A stretch of 56,547 bases of DNA from the IMG/VR virus record IMGVR_UViG_3300021376_000069, positions 1 through 56,547 of that record, one strand, 5' to 3'. Below, piece after piece: positions 36,767 to 51,985 of the stretch. Position numbers and translations under genes: made by a program. Positions within the stretch are counted from its first letter, which is position 1, and every line of letters starts with the position of its first letter. This DNA comes from a virus. Below the pieces are notes generated by a model. The model saw only the letters and a program-made list of their open reading frames with translations. It did not search any database and was not told where the DNA came from.

Positions 36767-37597
36767 ATGGAATATACAGGACTTAGAAAGCAAATCTACC
36801 TAGAACAAGGTGATGAAATTGGCTATGTAGATTTAATTCAAAGCATGGGTACTGACTTAACAATTGTTAATGCGGCGCGCGCTACATATGATAAGTACAA
36901 ACCAATTACAGATGAACAGCTTCCCGATGAAGATAAAAGACTAATTAAATATTTAATTAGTCACAAACATACTAGTACCTTAGAACATAATATCGCTACA
37001 TTTCGATTCAAGGTGCCATTGTTTGTAGCTAAGCAACATATGCGTCATAGAACATGGTCATTTAACGAAATGTCTCGACGCCATACATCAGAAAATATTG
37101 AATTCTGGACTCCAAATAAATATAGAGTCCCAGACCCAAAGAACAGACAACAATCAATTAATACAAATGATTTCAATCCAGTAGTACATATAACTCATGG
37201 AGAATTTAATTCCTATGAATGTAAAGCATCTGAGCTACAATTACAGCATGCTAAAGATTCATTAGAAAGATATAATGCATTAATCGATGCTGGAGTAGCC
37301 AGAGAACAAGCCAGAGCATTACTTCCAGAAATGCTTTACACTACTTATTGGGGTACTATCGACCTTAACAATTTAGTAAAGTTTTTAGATTTAAGAGAAG
37401 GTGGAGATGCTCAATGGGAAATTTCTCAAGTAGCCATTGCAGTGCATGAATTTGCAAATATGCTATGGCCAGAAACCATGAAAAACTATAAGACTCCAGA
37501 GCAAAGAAAACTAGAAGAAGAAAAAAGAATTCAATTAGAAGTAGAAAAAAGAGTAAAACAAGAACTACTCAATTATCAATTAACAAATAAAGGTTAA
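36767..37597 (+). CDS. thyX: Flavin-dependent thymidylate synthase
   Basis: 276 aa. The ThyX signature RHRTWSFNEMSRR (RHRxxSxNExSxR type) is intact and binds FAD and dUMP; LISHKHTSTLEH and LPEMLYTTYWGTIDLNNLVKFLDLR are also conserved. It methylates dUMP to dTMP using methylene-tetrahydrofolate and FAD. A C-terminal basic coiled tail (EEEKRIQLEVEKRVKQEL) extends beyond the usual domain. The gene is followed five bases later by ssb. Confidence 0.95.
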   Translation: MEYTGLRKQIYLEQGDEIGYVDLIQSMGTDLTIVNAARATYDKYKPITDEQLPDEDKRLIKYLISHKHTSTLEHNIATFRFKVPLFVAKQHMRHRTWSFNEMSRRHTSENIEFWTPNKYRVPDPKNRQQSINTNDFNPVVHITHGEFNSYECKASELQLQHAKDSLERYNALIDAGVAREQARALLPEMLYTTYWGTIDLNNLVKFLDLREGGDAQWEISQVAIAVHEFANMLWPETMKNYKTPEQRKLEEEKRIQLEVEKRVKQELLNYQLTNKG

Positions 37598-37601
37598 AGC
37601 A

Positions 37602-37982
37602 ATGAGCAAAACTGTAAATGAATGGGTTGGAGAAGGTTATATCGCTACAGATTTATTACTTAGACATACTACAGATTCTGCAAGGTCTGTAACTAATTTT
37701 GTATTTCTAATTGATATGCCTTACAAGGCTAAAAAGGGACAAGAAGAAACAGTAATTAAAAAACGAGTAGAAAAGATTCCTGTGACTGCTTGGACTGGTG
37801 TTGCAGAAAATATTTGCAACACACTAGTAAAAGGTGATAAAGTGCGCTTAAAAGGCGCAATAAGAACCAAATTGATTAAAGATAAACAAAACATTACCTT
37901 TAGTTCATTTGAGATTATTGCGTCAGAAGCAACTCTTATCTCGAGAAAAACAAACAAAAATGACGACAAAGAATCTGAATGA
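37602..37982 (+). CDS. ssb: Single-stranded DNA-binding protein
   Basis: 126 aa OB-fold of the bacterial SSB type: NEWVGEGYIATDLLLRHT, then VTNFVFLID, then IPVTAWTGVAENICNTLVKGDKVRLKGAIRT, then FSSFEIIASEA. The usual acidic C-terminal tip is short (NDDKESE). It protects ssDNA during replication. Overlaps the next gene. Confidence 0.85.
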   Translation: MSKTVNEWVGEGYIATDLLLRHTTDSARSVTNFVFLIDMPYKAKKGQEETVIKKRVEKIPVTAWTGVAENICNTLVKGDKVRLKGAIRTKLIKDKQNITFSSFEIIASEATLISRKTNKNDDKESE

Positions 37983-38700
37983 AATTAGTGAGCTTTTAAC
38001 ATCTTTAAGAGAATTAAAATGGGATCCTAATTGGTTGAACTGTAAGAAAGTAGATGACGGATTAATAAACGCCATAAAAGACTTTCAATCACAGCATTTT
38101 CTAGAGCCTACAGGAATAATAGATTCTGTTACATATAGAATACTTTATAACTTGTATGGAATTAAAAAACATTCAGCATCAAAAAACAAAAAAGAATTAG
38201 AAGCAAGTAAACATTTATTTTATAATTCTAAACCATTGAATTCTAGAATATTAGTATATAATCATGTTTATAATACTTGCTTAAAACCGAATGCATCAAG
38301 CTTTGACCCTTATGACGACCATAAGCAAAGAGATATAAGTCAAATAAATGTAATATATGATTACTGTTTAAATACAGAAATAGACACTTATTTGTCTTTA
38401 CACTTGAAGCATTCAACGCACTTTCAAATTGATAACGATGGTTCTATTTATCAAAATTTAGATTTACATTGTATACCCTTTAACAGAATGCCATACTTAA
38501 CAGTAGATGAAAGAATTACTATATCTATTGCAAATATAGTAATTCCAGCTATGCTTTCATGGTATGAAAAAAACGATATTCCTAGAGAGATATACAAAAA
38601 TAAAATACAAATGAACCACAAACAAAATTTTAGTTTAAATCAGCTATTAGATACTCTTAATAAATATTTTTCTATAAAAAATACAAATTATTGCTACTAG
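37960..38700 (+). CDS. Endolysin-like amidase with peptidoglycan-binding domain
   Basis: 246 aa from ATG 37960 (MTTKN). Residues about 20-65 form a peptidoglycan-binding-1-like repeat (GLINAIKDFQSQHFLEPTGI, followed by DSVTYRILYNLYG). Residues about 110-210 resemble amidase-2: LSLHLKHSTHFQIDNDGSIY and LDLHCIPFNRMP supply His residues expected for zinc binding. It would hydrolyse the amide bond between glycan and peptide. An upstream in-frame start at 37909 lies inside ssb. Confidence 0.65.
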   Translation: MTTKNLNEISELLTSLRELKWDPNWLNCKKVDDGLINAIKDFQSQHFLEPTGIIDSVTYRILYNLYGIKKHSASKNKKELEASKHLFYNSKPLNSRILVYNHVYNTCLKPNASSFDPYDDHKQRDISQINVIYDYCLNTEIDTYLSLHLKHSTHFQIDNDGSIYQNLDLHCIPFNRMPYLTVDERITISIANIVIPAMLSWYEKNDIPREIYKNKIQMNHKQNFSLNQLLDTLNKYFSIKNTNYCY

Positions 38701-38776
38701 CAATAGAAAGTATAAAGTGCCAAATTGATTTAATCATTTTGGTCCAGCTGCAACCCTTAAACTAAGAGAGAAGATT

Positions 38777-38860
38777 ATGTTTACAAACATTCAAAAGATT
38801 TACAAGACTACTATAGCATTATACATGTTTATAGTAACACTGGTGCAAATATGGACATAG
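38777..38860 (+). CDS. Very small membrane protein (27 aa), possible holin-like
   Basis: MFTNIQKIYKTTIALYMFIV..., one hydrophobic helix, with AGAGAGAAG as RBS. Its end overlaps the next gene start by 10 nt. Lies directly after the amidase, where a lysis partner would be expected, but size and sequence alone cannot prove it is a holin. Confidence 0.4.
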   Translation: MFTNIQKIYKTTIALYMFIVTLVQIWT

Positions 38861-39123
38861 TTTATTATCTACCAAACTGGTTAGCAACTACAGTATTTAT
38901 AATTGGATTCTATTCTAGCGGCGTAATATTGGTAAAAAGCTTTGAAGTGATAACTCATTACTTAAAGTTCAAACAATACCCATTACACCCTATAGAATAC
39001 AAATACATAAATATTCTAGAGGAAAATAAAATCCTAAAACAAAAAATATCTCAACATGAAGCTCAACAAGAAGAAATCTTTGAGCAAATGATTGAACAAC
39101 TTAAAGGAAAAAATTATGAATAA
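38851..39123 (+). CDS. Membrane protein with coiled coil, spanin-like topology
   Basis: 90 aa: an N-terminal transmembrane helix (WLATTVFIIGFYSSGVILV) and a C-terminal heptad-rich coiled coil (ILEENKILKQKISQHEAQQE). This inner-membrane-plus-coil layout is typical of i-spanins, fitting the neighbouring amidase. No second spanin gene found. Confidence 0.55.
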   Translation: MDIVYYLPNWLATTVFIIGFYSSGVILVKSFEVITHYLKFKQYPLHPIEYKYINILEENKILKQKISQHEAQQEEIFEQMIEQLKGKNYE

Positions 39124-39532
39124 GTATACATTTAGTCTACGTTTGACCTCTTCTTATAATCACGTAGAGGTAATCGCAGATGATAGAGATGAAGCATTGT
39201 CTTTAGTTTGGGATAGAATCAATGATAAAGAAATCGATGTGGATGACGAAACAATCGAAGTTTACGATGAATCTGAAGAACCAATTGAAGCTCAACAAAG
39301 CGGTTATACTCCTATGAGTGCATTAAACGCACAACAACCTCAACCAGAACTCGATAATGGTTATGTACCTATGGTTGCTGTCTCTAATCAAGACAATGAT
39401 TTGCTAGCTCAAATTGCAACCCTACTAAGAACTATTGAGGATTGCGCTGCAAAGGTTGAGGAGCTAAGAGCAACTCAAGAGCCAGAAGTATTGCCTAACG
39501 GTTATAGACCCTTAGCAAGCAATAAAAGATAG
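39116..39532 (+). CDS. Protein with three GYxP(M/L) repeats
   Basis: 138 aa from ATG 39116 with AAAGGAAAAAATT as RBS. A beta-rich N-terminus (YTFSLRLTSSYNHVEVIADD) is followed by an acidic stretch and three spaced repeats GYTPMSAL, GYVPMVAV and GYRPLA, possibly short binding motifs. No family recognised. It precedes the Lon-like gene by 17 nt and may belong to the Ubl cassette. Confidence 0.6.
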   Translation: MNKYTFSLRLTSSYNHVEVIADDRDEALSLVWDRINDKEIDVDDETIEVYDESEEPIEAQQSGYTPMSALNAQQPQPELDNGYVPMVAVSNQDNDLLAQIATLLRTIEDCAAKVEELRATQEPEVLPNGYRPLASNKR

Positions 39533-39549
39533 GAGTTGAGAGTTTATCT

Positions 39550-41190
39550 ATGAGTAATGTAAATTATGATAGTAATAGCGAATCAAGGTTTAACTTTATG
39601 CATGAACTACCATATATACTTATAGATAAATCTCAATTAGTTCCTCTTCCTGGCAATTCTTATCATCTAGAAATTAATAAAAGTACATTAGTAGAAACTG
39701 CTGGCTTGGTAACAGAGCAAGAAATTTATACAAATATATTCGCTTATTGTTTTAAAGATGGATCATCTGTACTTCCTTTCGGTGTTATATGCTCCGTAAA
39801 TGAACAAAAACTGTGCGACGGGAAACTAAGCTTATACTTTAGCTGTATAAGAAAAATTGAATCAATAGAAAAGAAATCTGATAGTAAATGTACTTTTTAT
39901 ATGTCAAAAACAACTCTTAAAAAGGACTCCTATCAATTTGTTAAATTATTTTTAGAGAATGCGCAGAAAAATCCCAATTTAAAAGACGTGATTGACACAA
40001 ACGGTTCAATATTCTCAGATATTGTAAATGTCAATCGCTGCCTAGATATCATGGAACCTGATAAAGATTTATTAATTAGGTATTTAAGTAGTTCTTCATG
40101 GTTCGAAAAGCTATGTGTTGCCGAATATATTCTTTCAGAATACAACTTAAAATTCGAAACAAATACAACGTACAAAAAAGTAATCAAACAAGATTCTCCT
40201 GTATCTGAAAAGATACTAATGGAAAAGAAAAGATTGAGCTCTATACCTCAATCATCTGCAGAACATGCAGCGACTCAAGATTACTTGCAAATATTAGAAA
40301 GCTTACCATTCGGTAAAGAAAATGAAGAAACTATTAATGTAGAAAATATTAAGAAAGAACTTAATGAATCTCATTATGGTTTGGAAAAAATTAAAGACGA
40401 AATACTAGATTTCTATGCCTTAAAGCAATTGACAGGTGTAGAAGCCTCTAGTCCTTTTCTCTTAAGTGGGCCTCCAGGTACTGGTAAAACTACAATAGTT
40501 AAAGCTATTGCAAAGGCTACAGGTAGAGACTTTATCTCTATTGCTTTGGGTGGTGTATCTGACGAATCAGAATTTCGTGGACATAGACGCACATATGTAG
40601 GCGCTAGACCTGGTAGAATTATTAGCGCACTATCAAAATGTAAATCAATGAATCCTATTATCCTACTAGACGAAATTGATAAAATTTCTACTAACGGAAA
40701 CAAAGGAGACCCATTTGGTGCTTTGTTGGAAATTCTAGACCCAGAACAAAACAAAGCATTCATTGATAGATTCTTAGAAATTCCTATCGATTTATCTAAA
40801 TGTACATTCTTTTGTACTGCAAATGATACAAATTATATTCCATTAGCAGTGATGGACAGATTAGATGAAATAAAATTTGTTGATTATACATCTGAACAAA
40901 AAACGCACATTATTAAGAATTACATATTCAATAAAATTAAAACCAATTATAATATGTCAAAATACGATATCGAACTAGAGGAAAAGCTAATTAATTTTCT
41001 TGCTTGTGAGTATAATTTGCGTAAAATTAATAGAGAGATAGAACGTATTTTTAGAAAAAGTGCCTCTAAAATCCTATCAGGAAAATCCGTTAGCTTAGTA
41101 ACTATGGATGATTATGATGACATGGATACAGAGGATATACCTATTCAAAAACATAATTCAAATAAAAAGAAAATCGGTTTTTACTTATGA
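39550..41190 (+). CDS. Lon-like AAA+ protein without protease domain
   Basis: 546 aa. N-terminal LON substrate-binding-like domain (ELPYILIDKSQLVPLPGN at 14-31). The AAA+ module is very close to Lon: LSGPPGTGKTT (Walker A), SEFRGHRRTYVGARPGRII, PIILLDEIDK (Walker B), DPFGALLEILDPEQN, CTAND sensor and MDRLDEI arginine finger. The frame ends after the AAA+ lid; the Ser-Lys protease domain is absent. It probably remodels or unfolds proteins. Its place beside a Ubl conjugation cassette suggests a proteasome-cap-like or adaptor role, which is inference. Confidence 0.88.
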   Translation: MSNVNYDSNSESRFNFMHELPYILIDKSQLVPLPGNSYHLEINKSTLVETAGLVTEQEIYTNIFAYCFKDGSSVLPFGVICSVNEQKLCDGKLSLYFSCIRKIESIEKKSDSKCTFYMSKTTLKKDSYQFVKLFLENAQKNPNLKDVIDTNGSIFSDIVNVNRCLDIMEPDKDLLIRYLSSSSWFEKLCVAEYILSEYNLKFETNTTYKKVIKQDSPVSEKILMEKKRLSSIPQSSAEHAATQDYLQILESLPFGKENEETINVENIKKELNESHYGLEKIKDEILDFYALKQLTGVEASSPFLLSGPPGTGKTTIVKAIAKATGRDFISIALGGVSDESEFRGHRRTYVGARPGRIISALSKCKSMNPIILLDEIDKISTNGNKGDPFGALLEILDPEQNKAFIDRFLEIPIDLSKCTFFCTANDTNYIPLAVMDRLDEIKFVDYTSEQKTHIIKNYIFNKIKTNYNMSKYDIELEEKLINFLACEYNLRKINREIERIFRKSASKILSGKSVSLVTMDDYDDMDTEDIPIQKHNSNKKKIGFYL

Positions 41191-41423
41191 AATTAATATG
41201 CTTAGATGTAGATAACTGTGGATATTCCACAATGTCAATAACAGATAATTTAGAATACAATATAGATATAAACCAAAACGTTCAAATGTGCCCTGAATGT
41301 AAAGACAGTTTAGCTATGTTAGTAGATGATTTCTTTCATTTTGATACTCTACATCCAGCAGAAAGAAAAAGAATTCAAATTTTAGAATTTGTAAAAGCCT
41401 TAGAGGAAAAAATAAAATTGTAA
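41187..41423 (+). CDS. Small Cys-containing protein
   Basis: 78 aa; VDNCGYSTMS and MCPECKDSLAM provide a CxxC plus upstream Cys that could form a zinc knuckle. Overlaps the Lon-like stop by 4 nt, so it is co-translated with it. No family recognised. Confidence 0.6.
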   Translation: MKLICLDVDNCGYSTMSITDNLEYNIDINQNVQMCPECKDSLAMLVDDFFHFDTLHPAERKRIQILEFVKALEEKIKL

Positions 41424-41447
41424 TAAAAACTAAAAGGAGAATTAGCT

Positions 41448-42254
41448 TTGGAATTTGAAAGCTTTAGCCTTGACGAAGCGTATGATGAGAACCATATAAA
41501 CTCGTATAAAAAAATAGTATCATTATTAAACAAAATAGATGATAAAATTATGAATTATAAATTTATATTATCTGGCGGATTTTTAATTTTTCATATGCTT
41601 GAAACACATAACGAAAATCGTAAATACAACGATATAGATTTATTTTTCGAATCAAAAGAAGACTTCAATAAATTAAATTCATATTTATTAGAGTCTTTCG
41701 CTAACAAACAAATTGTATACACAGAATACAAAACAAACAATGCAAACACTTATTCCTTTCAAATTGATTCCAAGGATGTCAAGCTTCAATTAATTCAAAG
41801 TATTTTTGAATCAAAGGAAAAAACCATAGCTTCCTTTGATTTACAAAATTGTCAAATTGCTTTAGATAATAAAGGCGAACTATGTATGAATAAAGATTTT
41901 GAGAATCTTTATTGGCGAAAAGAATTAAGAGTAAACAAGCTTGTAATCAAATATTTAGAGGAACGCGGCCCTGGTTATCTATTTACCTTACTGAATAGAT
42001 TTAAAAAATATCAATGGAGATATAATTTAATAAATTTAAATGAATCTACCATTAAGATAATAGAACAAATAGAACAAGATTATTCTCAAGAGATAACAAA
42101 AGATAAAACTATAACATGTGTGATTACAACATCCGGAGAATCAGAAGAAGAGATTACAAAAAATCTTTTTGAAGAATGGACTAGCTTCTTTATTGCATTC
42201 TTTAAAGAATATGTAAAAGAAAGCAACTGGATTATAACTAAAACTCAGCTTTAA
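41448..42254 (+). CDS. Nucleotidyltransferase-fold protein, TTG start
   Basis: 268 aa. FILSGGFLIFHMLE then NDIDLFFESKEDF gives the GG(x) and hxDhD pattern of the Pol-beta-type nucleotidyltransferase fold; a third acidic residue may be in the SFQIDSKDVKLQLI strand. No ATG fits; TTG at 41448 follows AAAAGGAGAATTAGC, a good RBS. It could modify a protein, RNA or nucleotide. CBASS-type NTase partners of E1/E2/JAB proteins come to mind, but the CD-NTase signature GS...DxD is not obvious, so no such claim is made. Confidence 0.65.
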   Translation: MEFESFSLDEAYDENHINSYKKIVSLLNKIDDKIMNYKFILSGGFLIFHMLETHNENRKYNDIDLFFESKEDFNKLNSYLLESFANKQIVYTEYKTNNANTYSFQIDSKDVKLQLIQSIFESKEKTIASFDLQNCQIALDNKGELCMNKDFENLYWRKELRVNKLVIKYLEERGPGYLFTLLNRFKKYQWRYNLINLNESTIKIIEQIEQDYSQEITKDKTITCVITTSGESEEEITKNLFEEWTSFFIAFFKEYVKESNWIITKTQL

Positions 42255-42272
42255 ATTGTAAAGGAAATCATT

Positions 42273-45200
42273 ATGATTATCTCCATTCCAAACAAAACTA
42301 CCTGTATGCCAAAGGAAAAATATGAGCTATTAACAAGCCTTAATAGCTATGGTTCACTTAGCAACGAATTCTTAAATGAATTAGAGCAACAAAAGGTTTA
42401 CAAAATCGATAATGTAAACTCTGTTATCAGTTCAATTGACAGAAGATATGCTCTATCAAAAAACTTATTTAACAATTTGACTTATAAATCAAGACTTAGA
42501 AATCAATTGTTTTATCAACAGAATAATGCCTATTTAAATAAATTCTTGACTGTTTTTATAGTTGAAAATTGGCATGACAAAAACCAAACATACTTAATTG
42601 AAAATATAGTTGCTAACTCTTGTACCCCATTTAAAAATCCTTTCATTCGTAACTTTAATGAATCTAACTTAATGAGATTGCCTAATCATCTATCAGATCA
42701 ATATGCTAATTGTAATGGCTTAGAAATTAAAGACATCTATAATATGTGGCGTGCCTCTGATTCCCCAGATGAATTCAATGAAGTGCTTAAGCAATTAGCA
42801 AATGAAAATAAAATTAATCCATTTTATATTTATGCTAATGCAAGTGAGGAAACGATTCGTCAATTAATTGACGAATCAAATTCAGTTACAAAATCTAATA
42901 TGAGATCAGATACAATCAGCACTTCAGATGTAAAGAGTATCATAAATAGTGGGGTGCTTGGTTTAAAATATCTCTCTAATTTTATTTATGCATATTTATT
43001 ATGTATCACTAAAGATTCGTTATTACTAGATGTAGAAAATGAATTGCTGACTACTAATAATGGAGAGTATAATTTTATAAATTTACTTTTTGATTTTTCT
43101 GGAATGAATCAAAATACAATTATGGGTGACCAATTCTCTATTACTTCTATGAACTTTGACGGATTTAAATATAGTCCAATTTCAAGCACAGAAGAAAAAC
43201 AGTACAAGCTTATTAAAAAATATCATCAATATAAAGTCAGCAATGCAAAGCAAATTGCAACTCAGAATGAACTTCCAGTATTTTCATGCTTTCCAAAAGA
43301 GTGGCTAGATTCTATTGGAATTAATTATTTTGAAAATAATATCAAGGTAGAACCCTCTCTACCTATAGGCTTTGTATACACTAAGCTCGACAATTATATG
43401 TTTAATGTTACAGAGACATCTACCTTAGGTGATTTTTCATTTGTAGGAGATTATACCTTATCTAAGGTTAAAGCTAAAAATGAAATCGTTAATCTTGTAA
43501 ACGATAGTCAAAAATCCGTAATTGAAATAGTTGAAAGTGCTTTCAACTTCGAAGTTGAAAAGATTAATTTAAAGGAAGCATTTTTACAAACACTCACATT
43601 TACTAATAATAAGATTAAAGCATTAGTGCTTAACAATTTTACTTCTGGTTCTCAACCATTCAATATGGAAGTAAAACAACTAACAAAAAATCAATTGATT
43701 CAATCAAACAATGCATTCGTACCAATTGCATTCAAAACAACAAAGATAAATCAATTCACAGGCGAAAAAGAAGAAATTTATTTTGTAAGCTTAGTTAACT
43801 TCCAGCCATTAAGTAGCTTTAGAAAATATACAAAATCTCAAAGATATCTCCAATATCTGAATAATTTGATTGAGTATGATTCTATTCAAGACCCATCTAT
43901 TTATGACCAAATTCTTGTTAAAAGATTTGGAAATACAATTAAATACAATTTAGCAAATCAAGAAGTATACGAAAGCTTTGGAGAGGATTTCGTTATGAAA
44001 ATAACTGAGCAAGACGTAAAAGAAATGCAGGTTATTGATAATGAAAAACTAGCTTTTTTAAATGGTAGTTTGAATATAGATGAAAAGTTAATTACTAAAT
44101 TCAAAGCCTTAAAAGATAAACAAGATATAATCTTAGCTAAATACACTGAAGAAGATAAAAGACTTACTGATTTAATTGATTCAAGCATTTTAAATGACAG
44201 ATATATTGAAGATGATAAAATTCAATTACAATCAATTACAGCTAGATTGAATGAAAGACTTCAACTAAAGGAAACATTTCCTACAAAAATTCAATTACAA
44301 GAAAAAGTATCCAGTGACCAAAGAGCTTTATTCGAATCAATCTCTAAAGAAGTACAAAAGCTAAATGAAATTCAAATAGAAGCTAAAAGAGATGCAATTG
44401 AAAATAAAAATTATATTCCCGATAGTTTTTTTACTGGGTTAAAAACAAGAGGTATTTACATTCAAGAAATTGAGTATCTGGATCAAAATCAAAATACTTT
44501 TAAATTTAACGCTAAGAACTTTAATAAGTTGAGTCTTGATAACATTCAAGATTTCACTCTAAGCTCTTTAAGTTTTATCGTTAACAAACCATTTAAGATT
44601 AAAGTAGATGGAGATGCTGCAAATATCATTTACGCAGGACCAATGAAGGTTCAAATAACAAATTCAAGTATCTCTGTTGGTGCTTTAAATTCATCTACTA
44701 TCTTAGGCTTTCTTGATAATAGAAACGCAATGGTACATCCACATTCATCTCCTATGAATTTGAGTAGCAATTTTGTAGCAACCGAATTCTTTTCATATAG
44801 AAGGGGATGCTTAGGCGAATCATCACCATATATTTACAATGCATTTAGCTCTACGTCTCCTTTAAAGAATGTTTTAGTAAATGCATTCATTTGGTTATCT
44901 AGTGCAAATAGTTCAGATCATTGGGGCAGAAATTACAAATTCTTCCCAAGATATGGCAGTACATCACTAGTTAACCTAGAAGAGGAAGCAATTAACTTAA
45001 TTACCATCAATGAATATATTGAATCAGAGGAACCATTATTAAAACCTAAAAAACAATGTGAACATGAATATGAAAATTCTATATGTATTCATTGTGGATT
45101 AGAATGTGTTGACCATAATTACGATTACGATGGTATTTGTACTATATGTGGGCATTACAATTCACGTTATGATGATTCAGATGAAGAAGATGAAATCTAT

Positions 45201-45284
45201 GACGAAGAGATAACACCAGAACAAGTAAATACAGCTCCAAATGTATATACACCCTACTCTCCATTAACAAACAATAATAACTAA
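42273..45284 (+). CDS. 1003-aa protein with E2-like motif and C-terminal zinc tail
   Basis: The long N-terminal part (about 1-690) is Asn/Lys-rich, helical and unrecognised, with a coiled coil around 590-700. Residues about 740-900 resemble an E2/RWD domain: beta strands, then HPH (His822), then RRGCLGE with candidate catalytic Cys846, then helices ending in WLSSANSSDHWG. Canonical E2s have HPN followed 8 residues later by GxxCL; here the gap is about 24. Residues 929-963 hold CxxC knuckles (ICIHCGLEC, ICTICG). It directly precedes JAMM and E1 genes. Confidence 0.65.
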   Translation: MIISIPNKTTCMPKEKYELLTSLNSYGSLSNEFLNELEQQKVYKIDNVNSVISSIDRRYALSKNLFNNLTYKSRLRNQLFYQQNNAYLNKFLTVFIVENWHDKNQTYLIENIVANSCTPFKNPFIRNFNESNLMRLPNHLSDQYANCNGLEIKDIYNMWRASDSPDEFNEVLKQLANENKINPFYIYANASEETIRQLIDESNSVTKSNMRSDTISTSDVKSIINSGVLGLKYLSNFIYAYLLCITKDSLLLDVENELLTTNNGEYNFINLLFDFSGMNQNTIMGDQFSITSMNFDGFKYSPISSTEEKQYKLIKKYHQYKVSNAKQIATQNELPVFSCFPKEWLDSIGINYFENNIKVEPSLPIGFVYTKLDNYMFNVTETSTLGDFSFVGDYTLSKVKAKNEIVNLVNDSQKSVIEIVESAFNFEVEKINLKEAFLQTLTFTNNKIKALVLNNFTSGSQPFNMEVKQLTKNQLIQSNNAFVPIAFKTTKINQFTGEKEEIYFVSLVNFQPLSSFRKYTKSQRYLQYLNNLIEYDSIQDPSIYDQILVKRFGNTIKYNLANQEVYESFGEDFVMKITEQDVKEMQVIDNEKLAFLNGSLNIDEKLITKFKALKDKQDIILAKYTEEDKRLTDLIDSSILNDRYIEDDKIQLQSITARLNERLQLKETFPTKIQLQEKVSSDQRALFESISKEVQKLNEIQIEAKRDAIENKNYIPDSFFTGLKTRGIYIQEIEYLDQNQNTFKFNAKNFNKLSLDNIQDFTLSSLSFIVNKPFKIKVDGDAANIIYAGPMKVQITNSSISVGALNSSTILGFLDNRNAMVHPHSSPMNLSSNFVATEFFSYRRGCLGESSPYIYNAFSSTSPLKNVLVNAFIWLSSANSSDHWGRNYKFFPRYGSTSLVNLEEEAINLITINEYIESEEPLLKPKKQCEHEYENSICIHCGLECVDHNYDYDGICTICGHYNSRYDDSDEEDEIYDEEITPEQVNTAPNVYTPYSPLTNNNN

Positions 45285-45295
45285 GGATTAAAGAT

Positions 45296-46420
45296 ATGAA
45301 ATCTGTAAATTCATTTAAAATCTTAACACAATCATCTGTAGAACCTTTTATCTCTATGGATTATGATTTAATGCAACAAATTCAACATATTGTTGAAATC
45401 GCACCAAAAGAAGCTCAATGGTTTCATCTAATGGAACAAATTGATTCAGCAGAATTTAGAATCTCAGAGATGTTTATTCCAGAACAAATCTGTAGTTCCG
45501 TAGAAGTAGATACTGATAGTCAAATGATGGTACGCTTTTGGAATGAACTAAAAGAAAAATATGGCGTAGTAGAAGCCTCTAATAAGTTAACTGTAATGAC
45601 TGTTTGGTGTCACAGTCATCACAATATGGCGCCTAGTCCTAGCGCTCAAGATAATACTCAATTCTATCAATTAGTTAAACAACAGAAGGATGCTGGGACT
45701 AATAAACCAGTACTTATGTTTATCTTTAATAAACGTAATGAATATTATTCTAGATTATGGGATCCAAAAACTAATTTAGTATATGAAGGCTTAGATATCG
45801 TTTATACTCATTACGATATGTCTTGGATTGACGCAGAAGCTAAAAAGAAATTTAAAGAACCACCAATCGTACCTAAGAGTTTTTTAGGTACAACTCCAGC
45901 AAATACAAAAGCAACATCTTATTATTGGACGAATCCATTAAAAGATGTACCAGCATATAGCTATACTGGAAAAGCAAATGGCAATCATTTAACTGCAAGC
46001 ACATCATCAAAAATGGCTATTTCAGATTGTTTTGGAGTGACTTACAATGAATTCAATGTAATCACCCAACCAATGGCAGATGAATTTGCAAGCTATGTTT
46101 CAGATGAATTAGAATCTCAAGAAAAATATATTTTGGCTTCGTTATTAAGAAAAGATAAAAACTTTTACAATAAAGCTTTAGAAGCAAAGAATAAGAAAAT
46201 CGCTCCTAAACCATTCAAAGAAACAATTATCAAAGCTATTACCTCTAATAAAATGACAATTGGATTACTAGAATGCATTTTGACAAATGTATTTGAAATG
46301 TATGACCAATTATTAATAGAGGATAAAGAAAGCTTTGATGTCTGGACAACAGATGTTATCGATATGATGGAAGAAACACTAACAGAACCAAAACCTCAAT
46401 ATACCTTGTTCTCTAAATAA
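45296..46420 (+). CDS. JAMM/JAB metalloprotease
   Basis: 374 aa. The JAMM motif is complete: CHSHHNMAPSPSAQD, that is His106-x-His108-x7-Ser116-x2-Asp119 with the SFxIL-type Glu in the preceding strand (EFRISEMFIPEQ). These zinc proteases cleave ubiquitin-like proteins from partners or process Ubl precursors. About 230 additional residues follow the domain, helical and unrecognised. Upstream is the E2-like protein, and downstream at 10 nt is the E1-like gene. Confidence 0.85.
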   Translation: MKSVNSFKILTQSSVEPFISMDYDLMQQIQHIVEIAPKEAQWFHLMEQIDSAEFRISEMFIPEQICSSVEVDTDSQMMVRFWNELKEKYGVVEASNKLTVMTVWCHSHHNMAPSPSAQDNTQFYQLVKQQKDAGTNKPVLMFIFNKRNEYYSRLWDPKTNLVYEGLDIVYTHYDMSWIDAEAKKKFKEPPIVPKSFLGTTPANTKATSYYWTNPLKDVPAYSYTGKANGNHLTASTSSKMAISDCFGVTYNEFNVITQPMADEFASYVSDELESQEKYILASLLRKDKNFYNKALEAKNKKIAPKPFKETIIKAITSNKMTIGLLECILTNVFEMYDQLLIEDKESFDVWTTDVIDMMEETLTEPKPQYTLFSK

Positions 46421-46429
46421 AGGATAAAA

Positions 46430-47119
46430 ATGTCTGTATCATTTCTTAGACACAGTGCATTCTTTGGGCCAGAGGATGCAAATCAATATGTATTAAATAT
46501 CATTGGAGTAGGTGCAACAGGCTCTTGGATTGCTATGCTAGCTGCCAGAATGGGTTGGCACAAGTTTAGAGTATGGGATTTAGATATTGTAGAATCTCAC
46601 AATTTACCTAATCAAGCATATACCCATGATGATATTGGTAAGAAAAAAGTAATCGCGCTTAAGGAACAACTACTTAGATTCAATCCAGAAATTGAAATTG
46701 AAACACATGATTATTTCTTTGAATCAGAAAAGCATAAAGAATTACTAGACGGGCCAGTTATCATTACTGTTGATTCACTATCTGCAAGAAAGGATATTGC
46801 AGAAGCAATTAAAGGTAATTGGAATGTCATGCATGCATTTGAAACTCGTATGGGATTTACTCATGCAGAAATCAATTACCTAGATTGTTTAAACATCCAA
46901 TCAGTAGAAAACTTTCAAAACTTACTTAAAAGCGATTCTGAAGTAACTGAAGCTGCATGTAATGAAAGAATTATCACAACTCTCACTTGCCAAGTTGCAG
47001 CAACTGTGGTACATTATTTATGTGCTTTAGTTACCAAAGATAGAAACAAGAACGAAGTACAAATTAGAAACAAAACTATTTTTACAAATACACCCACACT
47101 TTCCGTGTTTGGTATGTAG
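46430..47119 (+). CDS. ThiF/E1-like Ubl-activating enzyme
   Basis: 229 aa Rossmann adenylation domain. GVGATG (26-31) binds ATP; VWDLDIVE (Asp50, Asp52), DDIGKKKV and VIITVDS follow E1/ThiF order. Cys177 in EAACNER lies where E1 enzymes have a crossover-loop or conserved Cys. The usual NxNRQ arginine finger is NLPNQ (58-62), with Asn replacing Arg. No zinc CxxC pair. It would adenylate the C-terminus of the nearby Ubl proteins and pass it to the E2-like protein. Confidence 0.85.
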   Translation: MSVSFLRHSAFFGPEDANQYVLNIIGVGATGSWIAMLAARMGWHKFRVWDLDIVESHNLPNQAYTHDDIGKKKVIALKEQLLRFNPEIEIETHDYFFESEKHKELLDGPVIITVDSLSARKDIAEAIKGNWNVMHAFETRMGFTHAEINYLDCLNIQSVENFQNLLKSDSEVTEAACNERIITTLTCQVAATVVHYLCALVTKDRNKNEVQIRNKTIFTNTPTLSVFGM

Positions 47120-47128
47120 GAGAAACAA

Positions 47129-47356
47129 ATGCAAGAACAAGAGTTCAAATTACAAGATGAATTAACTCAATTGAGTCAAACATTAGCAGCCTTGCAAATT
47201 GATGCTCAGAAGTTTGATGATGGTAATGGTGCGGCTGGTAGACGTGCTAGGTCTTACTTAGCAAGTTTAAGAACAAGTATGCAGTCATTGCGTTTCAAGA
47301 TTCAAGAAGTAAAAAATCAAAGAATTGCACAAAAGAAAACCCAAGTTACTGAATAA
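47129..47356 (+). CDS. Histone H1/Hc1-like small phage protein
   Basis: 75 aa, helical. GNGAAGRRARSYLASLR followed by RFKIQEVKN fits the GNxxAGxRARxxLxxLxxxxxxLRxxIQExKN pattern of the Hc1-like proteins widespread in marine and other phages. The family name derives from chlamydial histone-like proteins; DNA binding is assumed, not proven. Its presence between the E1 and Ubl genes is unexplained; it could be a substrate. Confidence 0.6.
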   Translation: MQEQEFKLQDELTQLSQTLAALQIDAQKFDDGNGAAGRRARSYLASLRTSMQSLRFKIQEVKNQRIAQKKTQVTE

Positions 47357-47365
47357 GGAAATAAA

Positions 47366-47581
47366 ATGAGAAACATTACATTAGTAATCGTGCCAGGCAC
47401 AGGCGCAAAACAAATCCAGGTAGAAGACACAATGACCGTAGCAGAGCTTGTTGCTCGTGAATCTCTATTTGGTAGAGACATCATTGTAAATGGTGTTGGA
47501 GTACAAGCCACACAATTTAATACTCAAACCTTAGCAGGTGCAATTGAAGTATTTGCTACAGGGAGTGTTAAGGGCAATTAA
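47366..47581 (+). CDS. Single ubiquitin-like beta-grasp protein
   Basis: 71 aa. TLVIVPGTGA, TMTVAELVARES, DIIVNGVGV and EVFATGSVKGN follow the strand-helix-strand order of ThiS/ubiquitin-like folds. It is about 65-70 percent identical by eye to each repeat of the poly-Ubl protein at 48340, and shares its C-terminal ATGSVKGN exactly. Removal of one terminal Asn would expose a Gly, the usual Ubl conjugating end. The nearby JAMM protease may do this. RBS AAGGAAATAAA. Confidence 0.8.
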   Translation: MRNITLVIVPGTGAKQIQVEDTMTVAELVARESLFGRDIIVNGVGVQATQFNTQTLAGAIEVFATGSVKGN

Positions 47582-47731
47582 ATGGATTGGTGGAATAAAA
47601 ATTCTGACGATCCAATTATTAATCTAATAGTAGGTGTTGGATTTATTATCTATGCAATCATTGTAAGCCTATATAATCCGCTATATCTTATTATTTATTG
47701 CTTATTAACTATAATTTACTATTTGATTTAA
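47582..47731 (+). CDS. Small membrane protein, 49 aa
   Basis: MDWWNKNSDDPIINLIVGVG..., start overlapping the Ubl stop (TAATG). Two hydrophobic segments (IINLIVGVGFIIYAIIVSL; LYLIIYCLLTIIYYL) predict a hairpin in the membrane. Co-translation with the Ubl suggests a shared unit. No family recognised. Confidence 0.55.
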   Translation: MDWWNKNSDDPIINLIVGVGFIIYAIIVSLYNPLYLIIYCLLTIIYYLI

Positions 47732-47784
47732 AAGATAAAAAATAAAAAGATTTAATCGATTACCTAATACAAAAGGATAATCTT

Positions 47785-48198
47785 ATGTCTACAACAGTAA
47801 TTGTTATCAAAGGCAACTCTTCTCAAAGCTTATTAAATAGAATTGCACAAGCTTTAACAGATGAAGATAGAAATGCTCAAACTACAGAAATCAAACAAAA
47901 TCTAGTAAGAGCTTTTTCAGATGCAACTCAATTAAAAACAGAAGAAAATAAAAAAGAACGCAAAAAGCATGAAATGACTTATAGATTTGATTCAAATCAA
48001 GAAAAGCTAGTAAGGGCGTTTATCAATAAGAACCCAAGCTTTACTTTTAATCAAGTCTGTAACTTTTTAAGGAATGCAGGATATGAAAAGGTATATTTCA
48101 GAGATTTAAAAATTTGTTTAACAAAGTTTAATGCTACCTGTAGTATCGATTCAATAACCAGAAAGCATACCTGGATTGTAAAAAATGTCAGAAAATAG
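47785..48198 (+). CDS. Unknown basic protein, 137 aa
   Basis: MSTTVIVIKGNSSQSLLNR..., with a basic helical centre (KKERKKHEMTYRFDSNQEK) and a C-terminal region resembling a small winged helix (FTFNQVCNFLRNAGYEKVYF). DNA binding is possible. RBS AAAGGATAATCTT. It is followed by the TGTCA operator region. Confidence 0.6.
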   Translation: MSTTVIVIKGNSSQSLLNRIAQALTDEDRNAQTTEIKQNLVRAFSDATQLKTEENKKERKKHEMTYRFDSNQEKLVRAFINKNPSFTFNQVCNFLRNAGYEKVYFRDLKICLTKFNATCSIDSITRKHTWIVKNVRK

Positions 48199-48209
48199 TT
48201 AAATATTTC

Positions 48210-48275
48210 TGTCATTTTTGACACTTTTTTTCATGTCATTTTTGACATTAATTTTTAACCAAAAAATAACACTTT
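48210..48275 (+). promoter_or_regulatory. TGTCA-N4-TGACA operator/promoter region, copy 2
   Basis: TGTCATTTTTGACA occurs at 48210-48223 and again at 48234-48247; the second runs into TTAATTTTTAACCAA and ATAACACTT, closely matching 30796-30822. Two palindromes 24 nt apart (centre to centre) put dimer sites on about the same helix face plus two turns. It lies about 65 nt before the poly-Ubl gene. Confidence 0.7.
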
Positions 48276-48339
48276 TAAAGATAATAAGAACAAAAATCTA
48301 AAGAATTGTAAGAGTCTAACAAATTTTAGGAGAATTTAT

Positions 48340-49206
48340 ATGACTACACGTAATCTTACCCTCGTTGTTGTCCCTGGTACTGGCGCACGTTCTATCTCTG
48401 TAGATACTACTATGACCGTTGCTGATCTAGTTTGTCGTGAGAATTTACACGGTAGAGATATCATTATTAACGGTGTTGGTGTCAATCCACAATCCTGGAA
48501 TACCACAACACTTCAAGATGCAGTAGAAGTATTTGCAACTGGTAGTGTTAAAGGTAATGTTGATAGAACTGTAACTTTAGTAGTAGTTCCAGGTACAGGT
48601 GCTAGACAAACAACAATTCCTTCTCAAATGACCGTAGCAGATTTTGTTTGTAGAGAGAATCTCCATGGCCGTGATATTATTATTAACGGTGTAGGTTGCG
48701 CACCAACACAATGGAATACTACAACTTTAGATGAAGCTGTTGAGATTTTCGCAACAGGCTCTGTGAAAGGTAATGTTCCACAAACTGGAGTACTTGTTGT
48801 AGTTCCTGGAACTGGAGCAAGACAAGTAAGCTTTGATTCAGAATCTACAATTGCTGATTTCGTATGTGCTAATAATCTACATGGTAGAGATATCATTTTA
48901 GATGGCGTTGGCGTTAGTCCTACACAATGGAATAGTACTCAATTAGGTCAAGCAAGAGAAATCTTTGCAACCGGCAGTGTGAAGGGTAATGCTACTCGTA
49001 CTGCAACATTAGTTGTTGTGCCAGGTACTGGTGCAAGACAGGTACAAATTGATACAGAAATGACTGTAGCTGATTTTGTATGTCGTGAGAACTTACATGG
49101 ACGTGACATTATTCTTAATGGCGTAGGTGTAGCTCCACAGCAATGGAATCAGACAACACTAAATGACACTGTAGAAATCTTTGCTACAGGTTCTGTTAAA
49201 GGTAAT
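48340..49206 (+). repeat. Four tandem 216-nt coding repeats
   Basis: Units 48340-48558, 48559-48774, 48775-48990 and 48991-49206 encode the Ubl domains. Protein identity is very high while third positions differ widely, indicating selection on the protein. Confidence 0.9.
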
Positions 49207-49491
49207 GGCGCTGAAGGGTTTATTGAAGTGACTTATGGAAATGATGCAAAAACTTGCTTTAAGAGCTTAGTAGATACAGCTATTTACAAGCATGGTCATA
49301 ATCCTTATAGCGGTACTATTGCTACTGTATCAAGCTTTAAACTTGAAGAAACAGAGTTTCAAAATGAAGAAGCTGCATTGGCTTATGCAGATGATAAAAT
49401 CGAGGACTTAGAGAAAAGAGAATGCAGAGCAGTAAGCTTTGTAGAAAATAACAAAAGAGGCTTTGTCTTTTATGGTTGGGCTGCCTGTTAA
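48340..49491 (+). CDS. Poly-Ubl: four tandem beta-grasp domains plus C-terminal domain
   Basis: 383 aa. Repeat 1 is residues 1-73, repeats 2-4 are 72 residues each (to about 289), followed by a 94-aa domain of different sequence (IEVTYGNDAKTCF...GFVFYGWAAC). Each repeat has VVVPGTGAR, (T/A)VADFVC-type helix, HGRDII(I/L), GVG and ends ATGSVKGN. The repeats differ at many synonymous sites, so this is not a recent tandem duplication. Cleavage after each KG or KGN would liberate Ubls. Resembles the multi-ubiquitin proteins of known bacterial E1/E2/JAB operons. Confidence 0.88.
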   Translation: MTTRNLTLVVVPGTGARSISVDTTMTVADLVCRENLHGRDIIINGVGVNPQSWNTTTLQDAVEVFATGSVKGNVDRTVTLVVVPGTGARQTTIPSQMTVADFVCRENLHGRDIIINGVGCAPTQWNTTTLDEAVEIFATGSVKGNVPQTGVLVVVPGTGARQVSFDSESTIADFVCANNLHGRDIILDGVGVSPTQWNSTQLGQAREIFATGSVKGNATRTATLVVVPGTGARQVQIDTEMTVADFVCRENLHGRDIILNGVGVAPQQWNQTTLNDTVEIFATGSVKGNGAEGFIEVTYGNDAKTCFKSLVDTAIYKHGHNPYSGTIATVSSFKLEETEFQNEEAALAYADDKIEDLEKRECRAVSFVENNKRGFVFYGWAAC

Positions 49492-49871
49492 TGCTTATTC
49501 AAATCGTTGGACTGCCAGGTGTAGGTAAAACAACGCTTATAAATAAATTTAAAAATCAATCAACTGTAGATTTCAAAACACTAGACATTAGAAGCTTTCA
49601 TGCTCCAAATAGAGAAGAAAAACTAATCAATAGCATCTGTAATAAACAAACAAAATATATTATTGAATCAGCTTGCGGCATTGATATTGAACCTTCTATA
49701 GTTATATTAATTAAACAGAAAAAGTTTAATCATAAAAAACAATTGCAAAGTAGAGGTGAAGTTTACAACGAGTATGATCTACAAGCAATTGATGATCAAA
49801 TTATTCCAGCAAACTACACGGTATACAATTCAAAAGTATTTTGTGAATTACTTAACTATTTACTAAGATAA
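49491..49871 (+). CDS. P-loop nucleotide-binding protein
   Basis: 126 aa from ATG 49491 (TAATG overlap with the poly-Ubl stop; an earlier in-frame start at 49476 is less likely). VGLPGVGKTT is a Walker A motif near the N-terminus as in small kinases or GTPases. The next motifs are not clear enough to assign a substrate. Coupled to the poly-Ubl gene. Confidence 0.7.
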   Translation: MLIQIVGLPGVGKTTLINKFKNQSTVDFKTLDIRSFHAPNREEKLINSICNKQTKYIIESACGIDIEPSIVILIKQKKFNHKKQLQSRGEVYNEYDLQAIDDQIIPANYTVYNSKVFCELLNYLLR

Positions 49872-49881
49872 CGGAGTATTT

Positions 49882-50763
49882 ATGCTGGATTCTAAAGAGT
49901 ACAAGCTAGACGATTATTCAATTGATGAGCTCTATTTCAAAAAACAAGTTCCCATTGAAGAGCTATTTGAATCAAATGTGCCTAATGGTGAATATGTTAT
50001 TTTTCAATCCGAGGAGGATGAAAAGAAAACTGCCGTCATGTATTCATGTAAAGGTCAATTGAAGCTTATAAATAATAAAAAGATAAGCGCTAGTGGTTTC
50101 TATCCTAAAGATATTAACCAAAGTGTTTATATGAATTTATTAAAGGATGAAGATTTCATAATCGTTTGTGCTTTAGGTCCAGCAGGTACAGGAAAGACCA
50201 CAATAGCTATTGCTCAAGCTGTTGAAGATATGTCTAAATTAAAAAGAAACATAATACTAACAAAATCTACTAACATGGTACAGGGCAAGGATAGTAATGC
50301 GTTTGGTCCAGTTCCTGGAGATGTAAAAGAAAAGTATGCACCATATATAGATTCCTTTCAAATAGCTCTAACTAAAATTTTAGGTGGAGATGAAAGTAAA
50401 TCCTATTTACAATTACTACTAGATAAAGAAAAGATAAAATTCTTACCAATTGAATTTACTAGAGGATGTACCTTTGAAAATTGTACAATCATTCTAGATG
50501 AGGCACAAAATTTAACCTGGCATGAATTAAAAACCTTGATGAGTCGAGTAGGTGAAAATAGTAAATTAATTATATGCGGCGACCCACATCAGATTGATGC
50601 TAATTTACATTGGAGAGATACTGGTTTATGCACACTGTTAAATTCAGATGCATTCAAAAATTCTTATATATCAGGTAGCATTCATTTGACAAAATGCTAC
50701 AGAGGTCCTATACCAGAGTTAGTTTATCAGGTCGATAAACAGTTGACAGAAAGAATAATTTGA
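49882..50763 (+). CDS. phoH: PhoH-like ATPase
   Basis: 293 aa. An N-terminal polar extension of about 90 residues precedes the PhoH core: ALGPAGTGKTTIAIAQAVE (Walker A), NAFGPVPGDVKEKYAPYIDSF, EFTRGCTFENCTIILDEAQN (Walker B) and SKLIICGDPHQID. PhoH proteins are frequent in phages; some have RNA-helicase or RNase activity. Its role here is not known. The next gene begins at its stop. Confidence 0.9.
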   Translation: MLDSKEYKLDDYSIDELYFKKQVPIEELFESNVPNGEYVIFQSEEDEKKTAVMYSCKGQLKLINNKKISASGFYPKDINQSVYMNLLKDEDFIIVCALGPAGTGKTTIAIAQAVEDMSKLKRNIILTKSTNMVQGKDSNAFGPVPGDVKEKYAPYIDSFQIALTKILGGDESKSYLQLLLDKEKIKFLPIEFTRGCTFENCTIILDEAQNLTWHELKTLMSRVGENSKLIICGDPHQIDANLHWRDTGLCTLLNSDAFKNSYISGSIHLTKCYRGPIPELVYQVDKQLTERII

Positions 50764-51185
50764 TGAGCTATCCTACATCATTTTCAGTATATAAGAAAAG
50801 TGCAGCAGCACAATTTAACCTAATTTTACCACGTCGTAATGAAAAAGGTCGTGTAGAAAAAGAAGGTGCAGTTCTAATTGAAGTAACTAAAGCTTCTGGA
50901 GAAAAGCAATATGATTGGTCTAAAAAGATTGTATTTGCTTTTGGAATGAATGACCTTTGTCAGTTCTTTGATAATCCAGAGAATCCTCCTAGGTTAATTC
51001 ATAAGCTAGATGAAGTTACTAAAAGCTTAGAATTCAAGCAAGGTGAAAATCAATACGCTGGTACTTATATGTTAAGTCTAGCAGATGGAACAAATAAAAT
51101 CTCTGTACCTTTATCAGGTGGAGAATATGCAGTTGTTTCTAGATTATTTAGCTGCGCAATTCCAAAAATTATCGGATGGGAATAA
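50763..51185 (+). CDS. Unknown protein, possible ssDNA-binding type
   Basis: 140 aa from ATG 50763 (a TTG three bases earlier is also in frame). FSVYKKSAAAQFNLILPRR, WSKKIVFAFGMNDLCQFF and GGEYAVVSRLFSCAIPKIIGW are beta-rich and reminiscent of Whirly/PUR-like nucleic-acid binding proteins in phages, but the match is weak. Overlaps PhoH and the following gene. Confidence 0.55.
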   Translation: MSYPTSFSVYKKSAAAQFNLILPRRNEKGRVEKEGAVLIEVTKASGEKQYDWSKKIVFAFGMNDLCQFFDNPENPPRLIHKLDEVTKSLEFKQGENQYAGTYMLSLADGTNKISVPLSGGEYAVVSRLFSCAIPKIIGWE

Positions 51186-51478
51186 TGTTTGAAGTTAAAA
51201 GTAAAGACGGCTCCGTTATTAAAATTGAACCTCAAATGCTATTCACACTTTTTCTAAAGGATGTAAATGAAAACAAACCAGAACTGTTAAATGAAGTAGA
51301 AAAATTAGAAAAGCATTTTTTCAACCTATTTGATGAGTCAGCTTTATTCAACTCTCCCTTAATCAAAATCATGAATCTATTTTTTATACTTGGATATCAA
51401 TATTCAAAGTTTAAGGATAAAAATGAAGCAAAGCTCAATGATTCAGATTCAACAGACACCGGCACAGAAGGCATTTAA
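51185..51478 (+). CDS. Unknown protein, 97 aa
   Basis: Start at MFEVKSKDG overlapping the previous stop (TAATG). Helical and acidic with a hydrophobic FFILGYQY segment. No family recognised. Confidence 0.55.
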   Translation: MFEVKSKDGSVIKIEPQMLFTLFLKDVNENKPELLNEVEKLEKHFFNLFDESALFNSPLIKIMNLFFILGYQYSKFKDKNEAKLNDSDSTDTGTEGI

Positions 51479-51584
51479 TTTTTTCTGTGATGGATTATTA
51501 GATTTAACAGTAAGAACAATTATTATTTACAACCAAGCAAAACAAGAGGAAAAAAAGTATGTTCAGTTACGAAGTGAAAGTTAG
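51423..51584 (+). CDS. Small protein, 53 aa
   Basis: MKQSSMIQIQQTPAQKAF..., starting inside the previous gene with AAGGATAAAA upstream and ending inside the SpoVG-like gene. It fills the only gap between them. A helical middle (DGLLDLTVRTIIIYNQAKQE) is visible. Plausible but unproven. Confidence 0.4.
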   Translation: MKQSSMIQIQQTPAQKAFNFFCDGLLDLTVRTIIIYNQAKQEEKKYVQLRSES

Positions 51585-51981
51585 ACAAGTAAATGCTGGT
51601 AAGATGAAGGGTGTTGCTAGCGTAGTCGTGGATGGTTTAATTGAAGTAGAAGGCTTCAAGATTTATGAAGGCTCTAAAGGGCTATTCGTATCTAACCCAT
51701 CTCATAAAGGTAAGGGCAAGGACGAGCAAGGTAATGAAATCGAAAAATATTACGATGACGTCAGAGCAGTTGGTGACCAAGGCGAAGAGCTTTTAGAAGA
51801 GATTAAACAAGAGATGCTCAAACAATATGCAGGACTCACTAACTCACCTCAAGCTGCAAGACAACAATCTGTAAATACTAGAGGTAATGCAGCAGCTGCA
51901 GTTACTGCAAAACAAACTACTACTGTAAAAGCTCAAGAACCTACATCTACACCTCCAAAACCAAAAAAGCCACTTTGGTAA
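51559..51981 (+). CDS. SpoVG-like DNA-binding protein
   Basis: 140 aa. VRQVNAGKMKGVASVVVDGL and GFKIYEGSKGLFVSNPS match the SpoVG fold, whose bacterial members bind specific DNA or RNA sites. Residues about 100-140 are an added Gln/Ala/Thr/Pro/Lys tail. Many large phages carry such proteins. Possible regulator of phage genes or nucleoid-like role. Confidence 0.75.
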   Translation: MFSYEVKVRQVNAGKMKGVASVVVDGLIEVEGFKIYEGSKGLFVSNPSHKGKGKDEQGNEIEKYYDDVRAVGDQGEELLEEIKQEMLKQYAGLTNSPQAARQQSVNTRGNAAAAVTAKQTTTVKAQEPTSTPPKPKKPLW

Positions 51982-51985
51982 ATAA

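Follow-up and report, generated by a model that had tools for sequence, protein, structure and literature searches.

A predicted phage-encoded pathway for conjugation and removal of a ubiquitin-like protein

Bil and BubCD are bacterial conjugation systems for ubiquitin-like proteins (Ubls) with E1, E2, JAB and Ubl parts. To our knowledge, complete prokaryotic sets of E1, E2, deubiquitinase and Ubl are bacterial or archaeal, and the bacterial sets of known function mostly fight phages. Bacterial operon types with the same parts list (types 6a-6e) were predicted in 2006 by Iyer et al. (PMC1779556). Here a cassette of such parts was analysed in IMG/VR virus record IMGVR_UViG_3300021376_000069 (56,547 bases; this whole stretch of DNA is termed the window). 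The cassette spans positions 39550-49491, where the listing of open reading frames (ORFs) places every major ORF on the plus strand in one direction, and its gene content, synteny, catalytic residues and predicted Ubl fold indicate that it probably encodes a pathway for Ubl conjugation and deconjugation. No description of this phage system was found in a literature search that covered mainly open-access journal papers.

An earlier reading of the letters without database searches (the sequence-only reading) had proposed a phage cassette of E1, E2-like, JAMM protease, Ubl and poly-Ubl genes, and ORFs, protein families, synteny and invariant residues agree with it. Each part that it named is a genuine ORF with the coordinates given below and all run in one direction, but four genes lying between them (41187-41423, 41448-42254, 47129-47356 and 47785-48198) had been passed over.

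Genes of the cassette and their relatives

The E1/ThiF-type adenylating enzyme (46430-47119, plus strand, 229 amino acids) matched Pfam ThiF with an E-value of 5.9e-24 (85 bits against a cut-off of 28.1), ThiF/MoeB models of NCBIfam and E1-E2 models of PADLOC. Its motif residues (GxGxxGS, DxD, N58..Q62, K73, D115, R120 and Cys177) were invariant in the sister alignment, and its PDB profile matches included UBA5, Cap2 and MccB as well as a weak match to BubCD. The JAMM/JAB metalloprotease (45296-46420, plus strand, 374 amino acids) was recognised by Pfam Prok-JAB at 1.3e-5 (25.5 bits, barely over the 25-bit cut-off) and by PADLOC JAB at 6.6e-6, while a PDB sequence profile search with the JAB alignment returned chance matches only. 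The JAMM motif E...HxH-x(7)-S-x(2)-D was present (E39, H106-S-H108, S116 and D119) and invariant in 15 of 15 sequences.

The single Ubl gene (47366-47581, plus strand) encodes 71 amino acids ending in FATGSVKGN. Its AlphaFold2 (AF2) model was a beta-grasp fold with a predicted local distance difference test score (pLDDT) of 92.2, and the top Foldseek matches in the PDB were mostly ubiquitin or Ubls, with ThiS among them (probability ~1.00, none reaching an E-value of 0.001); the beta-grasp fold anticipated by the sequence-only reading was thus recovered (pLDDT 92, ubiquitins at ~1.00). The poly-Ubl gene, including its fused tail, occupies 48340-49491 on the plus strand. It holds four tandem Ubl repeats (48340-49206) which were delimited by hidden Markov model domains and alignment (48340-48558, 48559-48774, 48775-48990 and 48991-49206), which align with the single Ubl along its full length, and which together matched NCBIfam thiS at 2.9e-9. 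Each repeat ended in FATGSVKGN, and the starts of the following units were short and variable.

In the clade of the window, all 34 unique Ubl domains from 15 phages ended in FATG[SA]VKGN, the Gly of this terminal motif being invariant and always followed by Asn, and the position after that Asn was a stop or varied among 11 amino acids. Poly-Ubl genes carried 2-4 repeats, with a mean identity of 73% within a gene versus 57% between phages. More distant phage Ubls had a PG motif close to their N-terminus and ended in KG[N] (Asn in 15 of 16, Ala in one), and several distant KGN Ubls matched Ub-Mut7C, ThiS, RnfH or SAMP2. As judged from these alignments, the KGN terminus is a hallmark of the Ubl family; an end in KG had been read correctly beforehand, the full motif being KGN. 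The simplest reading is that Gly would be the working end and Asn the residue removed by the JAMM protease, because the crAss and Xanthomonas Ubls described below retain Gly without Asn.

The domain fused behind the fourth Ubl (49207-49491, plus strand) is homologous to a protein that stands alone in Caulobacter Bertelyvirus phages (36% over 102 columns in tblastn), and it is possibly a passenger released by Ubl cleavage. An apparent Ubl match in Caulobacter phages was rejected, as the alignment falls on this fused domain and not on the Ubl. The Bertelyvirus counterpart (L008, 4261-4563) is a stand-alone gene in the phage terminal repeats. Some Ubl genes carry a conserved basic tail, N[AG]PSxTGRPSGGGRGNNxxR/K, behind KGN (L017 11215-11529, L018 10421-10927, L019 10366-10737, L020 9993-10280 and L023 10988-11284); a BLAST search with RPSGGGRGNN gave no phage match, with the caveat that the query may have been masked as low-complexity sequence.

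The 1003-amino-acid E2-like protein (42273-45284, plus strand) had no significant match in Pfam, PHROGs, NCBIfam or PADLOC and was reached via its relatives only. Its N-terminal part is large and variable; the E2-like domain lies at about residues 712-900, with HPH encoded at 44736-44744 and the candidate active-site Cys846 at 44808-44810, and is followed by a Cys-rich C-terminus. Eleven residues (H822, P823, H824, C846, L847, G848, W874, N879, D882, W884 and G885) were invariant in 15 aligned E2-like sequences. An active-site His motif followed by a candidate catalytic Cys was found as HPH...CLG in 15 sister sequences and as HPH...C.G in 18 wider ones, and a compact signature (HPH with C[LF]G close behind) recurred in wider proteins of phages and metagenome-assembled genomes (MAGs) which adjoin E1/JAB genes. 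When the E2 profile of the window clade was compared with the wider phage profile (A8) using hhalign, a match was obtained at 97.5% probability (E 5.8e-12), with both profiles in register at the HPH, CLG and N..D..G columns. One wider-family member matched the eukaryotic E2 family Pfam UQ_con at 0.014 (model positions 2-119 of 140). A crude blastp comparison of the window E2 with a Xanthomonas phage protein was negative, and the wider E2 profile matched the same protein at 6.7e-7. The AF2 model of the E2-like protein (pLDDT 81.4) had one clear Foldseek match in BFVD, an uncharacterised phage homologue of 1146 amino acids. From the active-site signature, the operon context and the hhalign match to compact E2 domains of other phages, the protein is likely to be an E2.

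A profile built from phage JAB proteins retrieved 80 loci from viral contigs; no matches to viral contigs were obtained when the window E1 by itself or the poly-Ubl served as query. The gene order E2-JAB-E1-Ubl was common to 16 further viral contigs (L009-L024, including the near-identical pairs L011/L012 and L021/L022), and a 17th copy lies on L106, a contig that is assigned to a gammaproteobacterial MAG and is probably phage DNA. Because the order recurs in 16 contigs and the catalytic residues are invariant, the cassette is not a chance assembly. E1, JAB, E2 and Ubl occurred together, by profile and in several gene orders, in 43 of the 80 loci, part of which contributed to the search profiles. 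In the E1 tree the window fell in a group of 16 rows with 100/100 support, all of them phage contigs plus L106. The sampled cellular E1s grouped apart from the phage E1s, with unsettled bootstrap, several long branches and one Cap2 row.

The E1 of one of the loci (L029) matched records of 85 phages, including crAss001, other Bacteroides crAss-like phages, and Flavobacterium and Xanthomonas phages. Related cassettes are present in the cultured crAss001, Xanthomonas and Flavobacterium phages, where E1 is annotated as 'thiamine biosynthesis'. In crAss001, gp76 (E1) and gp77 (annotated as a metalloprotease) adjoin gp78 and gp79; the counterparts of the latter two in cr128_1 and bajarodcaudo virus 1 show a candidate E2 with HSH...C.GSG and a Ubl-like N-terminus ending in KIKSG, and the crAss E2 candidates matched the wider E2 profile weakly (hhalign P 7.5e-4, probability 25%). 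Judged from these counterparts, gp78 and gp79 are tentatively assigned as E2 and Ubl. Elsewhere the cassette neighbours were ligase and topoisomerase (L003), toprim and uracil-DNA glycosylase (UDG; L004), or primase and UDG (L005-L007 and crAss001), and DNA polymerase A lay about 1.5 kb downstream of the cassette in L026. Two gut phage cassettes (L002 and L036, E1 at 6016-6747 and 8905-9576, respectively) have a reverse-transcriptase-like gene just downstream of E1, and a different small Ubl-like ORF whose end is LDNAR or DNALAA, without Gly.

Predicted pathway and competing explanations

In the proposed pathway, the JAMM protease would trim the single Ubl and cut the poly-Ubl after the conserved Gly (VKG|N), which would yield a C-terminal Gly and free the tail domain. 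Going by the protein families and conserved residues, E1 would adenylate the Ubl Gly, Cys846 of the E2-like protein would receive the Ubl from E1, and the E2-like protein would then tag proteins of host or phage on their amino groups. The JAMM protease may also strip the Ubl, so that tagging would be reversible. More speculatively, targets could be remodelled or chosen by accessory proteins, for which the peptidase-less Lon-type ATPase, the zinc-ribbon protein and the nucleotidyltransferase-like protein are candidates. It would follow that phages probably run a protein-tagging pathway of their own and are not only attacked by bacterial ones, because the same kit is shared by many phages that are unrelated to one another, crAss-like phages of the gut among them.

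The strongest competitor, which we still consider improbable, is that the cassette is an interference device which jams Ubl-based host defences such as Bil or Cap2/Cap3 of the cyclic-oligonucleotide-based anti-phage signalling system (CBASS), by competing for Ubl or targets, or which excludes rival phages. Bacterial E1/E2/JAB systems are indeed anti-phage, as with cGASylation in CBASS (PMC10097602, PMC10449767) and the tagging of phage tails by Bil, for which a passage of PMC12135933 cites other work; the window E1 matches PADLOC E1-E2 models, and a nucleotidyltransferase-like gene adjoins the cassette. However, that gene product resembles AbiEii and matched no model of a cGAS/DncV-like nucleotidyltransferase (CD-NTase), the phage E1s lie apart from the sampled cellular E1s in the tree, and full catalytic conservation across deep divergence, together with the wide spread, suits a dedicated phage function more than a decoy.

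Several results weigh against the predicted pathway, most of them at the E2 step. The wider phage E2 profile was in register with four Cap2-type E2 domains, but weakly so (hhalign P 0.002, probability 12%), and the window's own clade gave no hhalign match to the same four domains. Foldseek of the E2 model against the PDB returned noise with no significant match; in VIA-align, ubiquitin E2 variant (UEV) domains made up most of the longest alignments, at 109-115 aligned residues and Z 2.3-2.7 among unrelated rows; and hmmsearch and PDB sequence profile searches with the E2 alignments gave chance matches and nothing relevant. The spacing from HPH to Cys is long in the window's clade, and no E3 was identified. 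In addition, the Asn of KGN stays invariant even where the gene ends with it, which a simple C-terminal-Gly mechanism does not need.

Two explanations that draw on these points are each judged unlikely, and to a similar degree. The large protein could be another cysteine enzyme or an adaptor, with E1, JAB and Ubl acting without it or with a host E2, as the weak fold evidence and the large, variable N-terminal part would allow; against this stand the HPH...CLG signature, the strict linkage to E1, JAB and Ubl, and homologous phage proteins with a compact HPH...C[LF]G. The E2 proposed by the sequence-only reading is accordingly upheld by motif (HPH...CLG in 15 sequences) and profile (hhalign E 5.8e-12), and the fold matches are only marginal. 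The second explanation starts from the Asn: the E1-like MccB acts on the Asn that ends the microcin C peptide, and by analogy the chemistry here may use the terminal Asn in place of a free C-terminal Gly, in an ancient, separate phage Ubl branch with poly-Ubl precursors and a KGN end that would serve replication or takeover.

Less credible again is a sulfur-carrier pathway, in which a ThiS/MoaD-like Ubl would be turned into a thiocarboxylate by E1 for phage sulfur transfer (nucleobase or tRNA thiolation, or a cofactor). The matches of E1 to ThiF/MoeB models and of the Ubl to thiS are in its favour, the 'thiamine biosynthesis' annotations imply such a role, and operons of JAB, ThiS and E1 for sulfur metabolism exist (PMC1779556). 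It leaves the E2-like protein and the poly-Ubl unexplained, however, the Ubl terminus is Asn and not a free Gly, and neither a thiazole synthase nor a rhodanese or thiouridylase came to notice in the window, where no one-by-one search for them was made.

For the predicted tagging pathway, we would place the likeliest targets, with moderate confidence, among proteins of replication, repair or host takeover and not among virion components, given that genes for replication and nucleotide metabolism accompany the cassette both here and in unrelated phages. The cassette is often found among DNA-replication genes and away from structural genes, and a regulatory or host-takeover role is therefore favoured over virion assembly. 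A structural or assembly role, with E1 and E2 as auxiliaries, is the least probable explanation, since the JAB and Ub-like pairs of the lambda and T1 tail modules (proteins I and K in lambda; PMC1779556) which suggest it lack E1 and E2 in lambda, the window cassette lies on the plus strand among genes for a single-stranded DNA-binding protein (SSB), ThyX-like and PhoH-like proteins and ribonucleotide reductase (RNR) and not by the minus-strand terminase block, and related phage cassettes adjoin primase, ligase, polymerase or UDG genes; assembly control, one purpose suggested by the sequence-only reading, is thus disfavoured by genome context.

A conserved set inside phages reverses the defence picture and would give phages a reversible protein-tagging route. 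Its poly-Ubl precursor is a parallel to the polyubiquitin of eukaryotes, the KGN end leads to a specific prediction on processing that can be tested, and, as a diverged form reaches cultured crAss-like phages, the pathway is testable there now. It is easily overlooked because the genes are widely annotated 'thiamine biosynthesis protein'.

Accessory and neighbouring genes

The Lon-like AAA+ protein noted at the left end proved to be a Lon-type ATPase of 546 amino acids (39550-41190, plus strand), identified by synteny, Pfam AAA (8e-26) and TIGR00763 lon (E 7.7e-103, residues 213-534, model positions 266-590 of 795). As the protein extends 12 amino acids beyond the lon match, which stops at 590 of 795, the Lon peptidase domain is missing and only the ATPase and lid are present. 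Next to it lies a 78-amino-acid zinc-ribbon-like protein (41187-41423, plus strand; C..D.DNC...CPEC), with blastp homologues in L010, L011, L012 and L020 and a similar ORF in L106. The nucleotidyltransferase-like protein, distantly AbiEii-like, is encoded at 41448-42254 (plus strand); it matched phrog_4400 (1e-11), phrog_1614 nucleotidyltransferase (5.4e-4) and PADLOC AbiEii (0.0037), its motif G[GS]...D-h-D-h-[YF]F was kept in 13 sequences, and no CD-NTase model was matched in the Pfam, PHROGs, NCBIfam and PADLOC scans. An Hc1-like small helical (coiled-coil) protein (47129-47356, plus strand; Pfam Hc1 1.1e-11) has blastp homologues in L016-L023, while the 137-amino-acid ORF between both Ubl genes (47785-48198, plus strand) had no homologue among the sister loci.

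Downstream on the plus strand are a small P-loop protein (49476-49871; weak Pfam P-loop matches) and a PhoH-like ATPase (49882-50763, named from sequence reading). PhoH-like homologues were found in 16 of the 16 sister contigs, nucleotidyltransferase-like and small P-loop homologues in most (the latter at the same place), and the upstream Lon-type ATPase in roughly half of them. Genes for SSB, ThyX-like and PhoH-like proteins flank the cassette in the window, with those for Whirly and RNR further off, and the minus-strand terminase block (large subunit at 5233-7434) lies apart from it. No terminator-like site was found on the plus strand within 36000-52000, and a promoter scan was uninformative (fewer matches than in shuffles).

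The Whirly-type ssDNA-binding protein gene (50760-51185) adjoins the PhoH-like gene. Positions 31585-33925 hold an adenylosuccinate synthetase homologue (phrog_1211, 2-aminoadenylosuccinate synthetase/PurZ type) and, behind it, an adenylosuccinate-lyase-like gene, and a modified purine, for instance 2-aminoadenine, may be synthesised by the phage; a 2-oxoglutarate-Fe(II) oxygenase of the alkylated-DNA-repair type (33922-34494) lies directly behind these purine genes. A minus-strand protein of 1566 amino acids (8645-13345) has a staphylococcal-nuclease-like domain near its C-terminal part, and a plus-strand ORF of 1843 amino acids (17536-23067) had no Pfam match.

Comparison with known systems

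Type 6d of Iyer et al. is presumably the PRTRC system of NCBIfam, and membership of PRTRC was rejected: the window E1 scored 28.7 against a cut-off of 144.75 bits, the other window proteins had no PRTRC match, and the wider-phage proteins behaved likewise. Like the phage set, type 6d has separate E1-like, JAB and E2-like genes with a small Ubl bearing a conserved C-terminal Gly (PMC1779556), but its E2 lacks the usual active-site His, whereas the phage E2 has HPH before Cys, and the phage set adds a poly-Ubl and lies in a phage genome. Type 6e shares tandem Ubl repeats with E1 and JAB; it fuses JAB or another domain to E1 and has an RWD-like inactive E2, whereas the phage genes are all separate, with a conserved Cys in the E2 and a KGN end on each repeat. 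Type II CBASS with Cap2/Cap3 (type 6b) has similar E1, E2 and JAB chemistry and a nucleotidyltransferase gene nearby. Its Cap2, however, is an E2-E1 fusion which conjugates the CD-NTase without a beta-grasp protein, while the phage set has a true Ubl; type II CBASS was rejected, as E1 and E2 are separate ORFs and an AbiEii-like match was obtained instead of a CD-NTase match. Bil and BubCD differ in being bacterial, and the phage Ubls end in KGN rather than Gly-Gly.

Among phages, proteins I (Ub-like) and K (JAB plus NlpC) of the lambda and T1 tails likewise form a phage-encoded Ub-like and JAB pair, but in a tail module at another location and without E1 or E2. Related cassettes are crAss001 gp76-gp79 and those of Flavobacterium Fpv4 and Xanthomonas PhiXhv-15, where E1 adjoins a candidate E2 and Ubl, with JAB in crAss001 and Fpv4 and none seen beside the PhiXhv-15 E1; their Ubls end or break off at SG/GG and not KGN, and their E2s are diverged. 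The phage set thus fits none of types 6a-6e, being neither PRTRC by the models, nor CBASS, nor the multi-Ubl type 6e, and is a variant of the known parts list.

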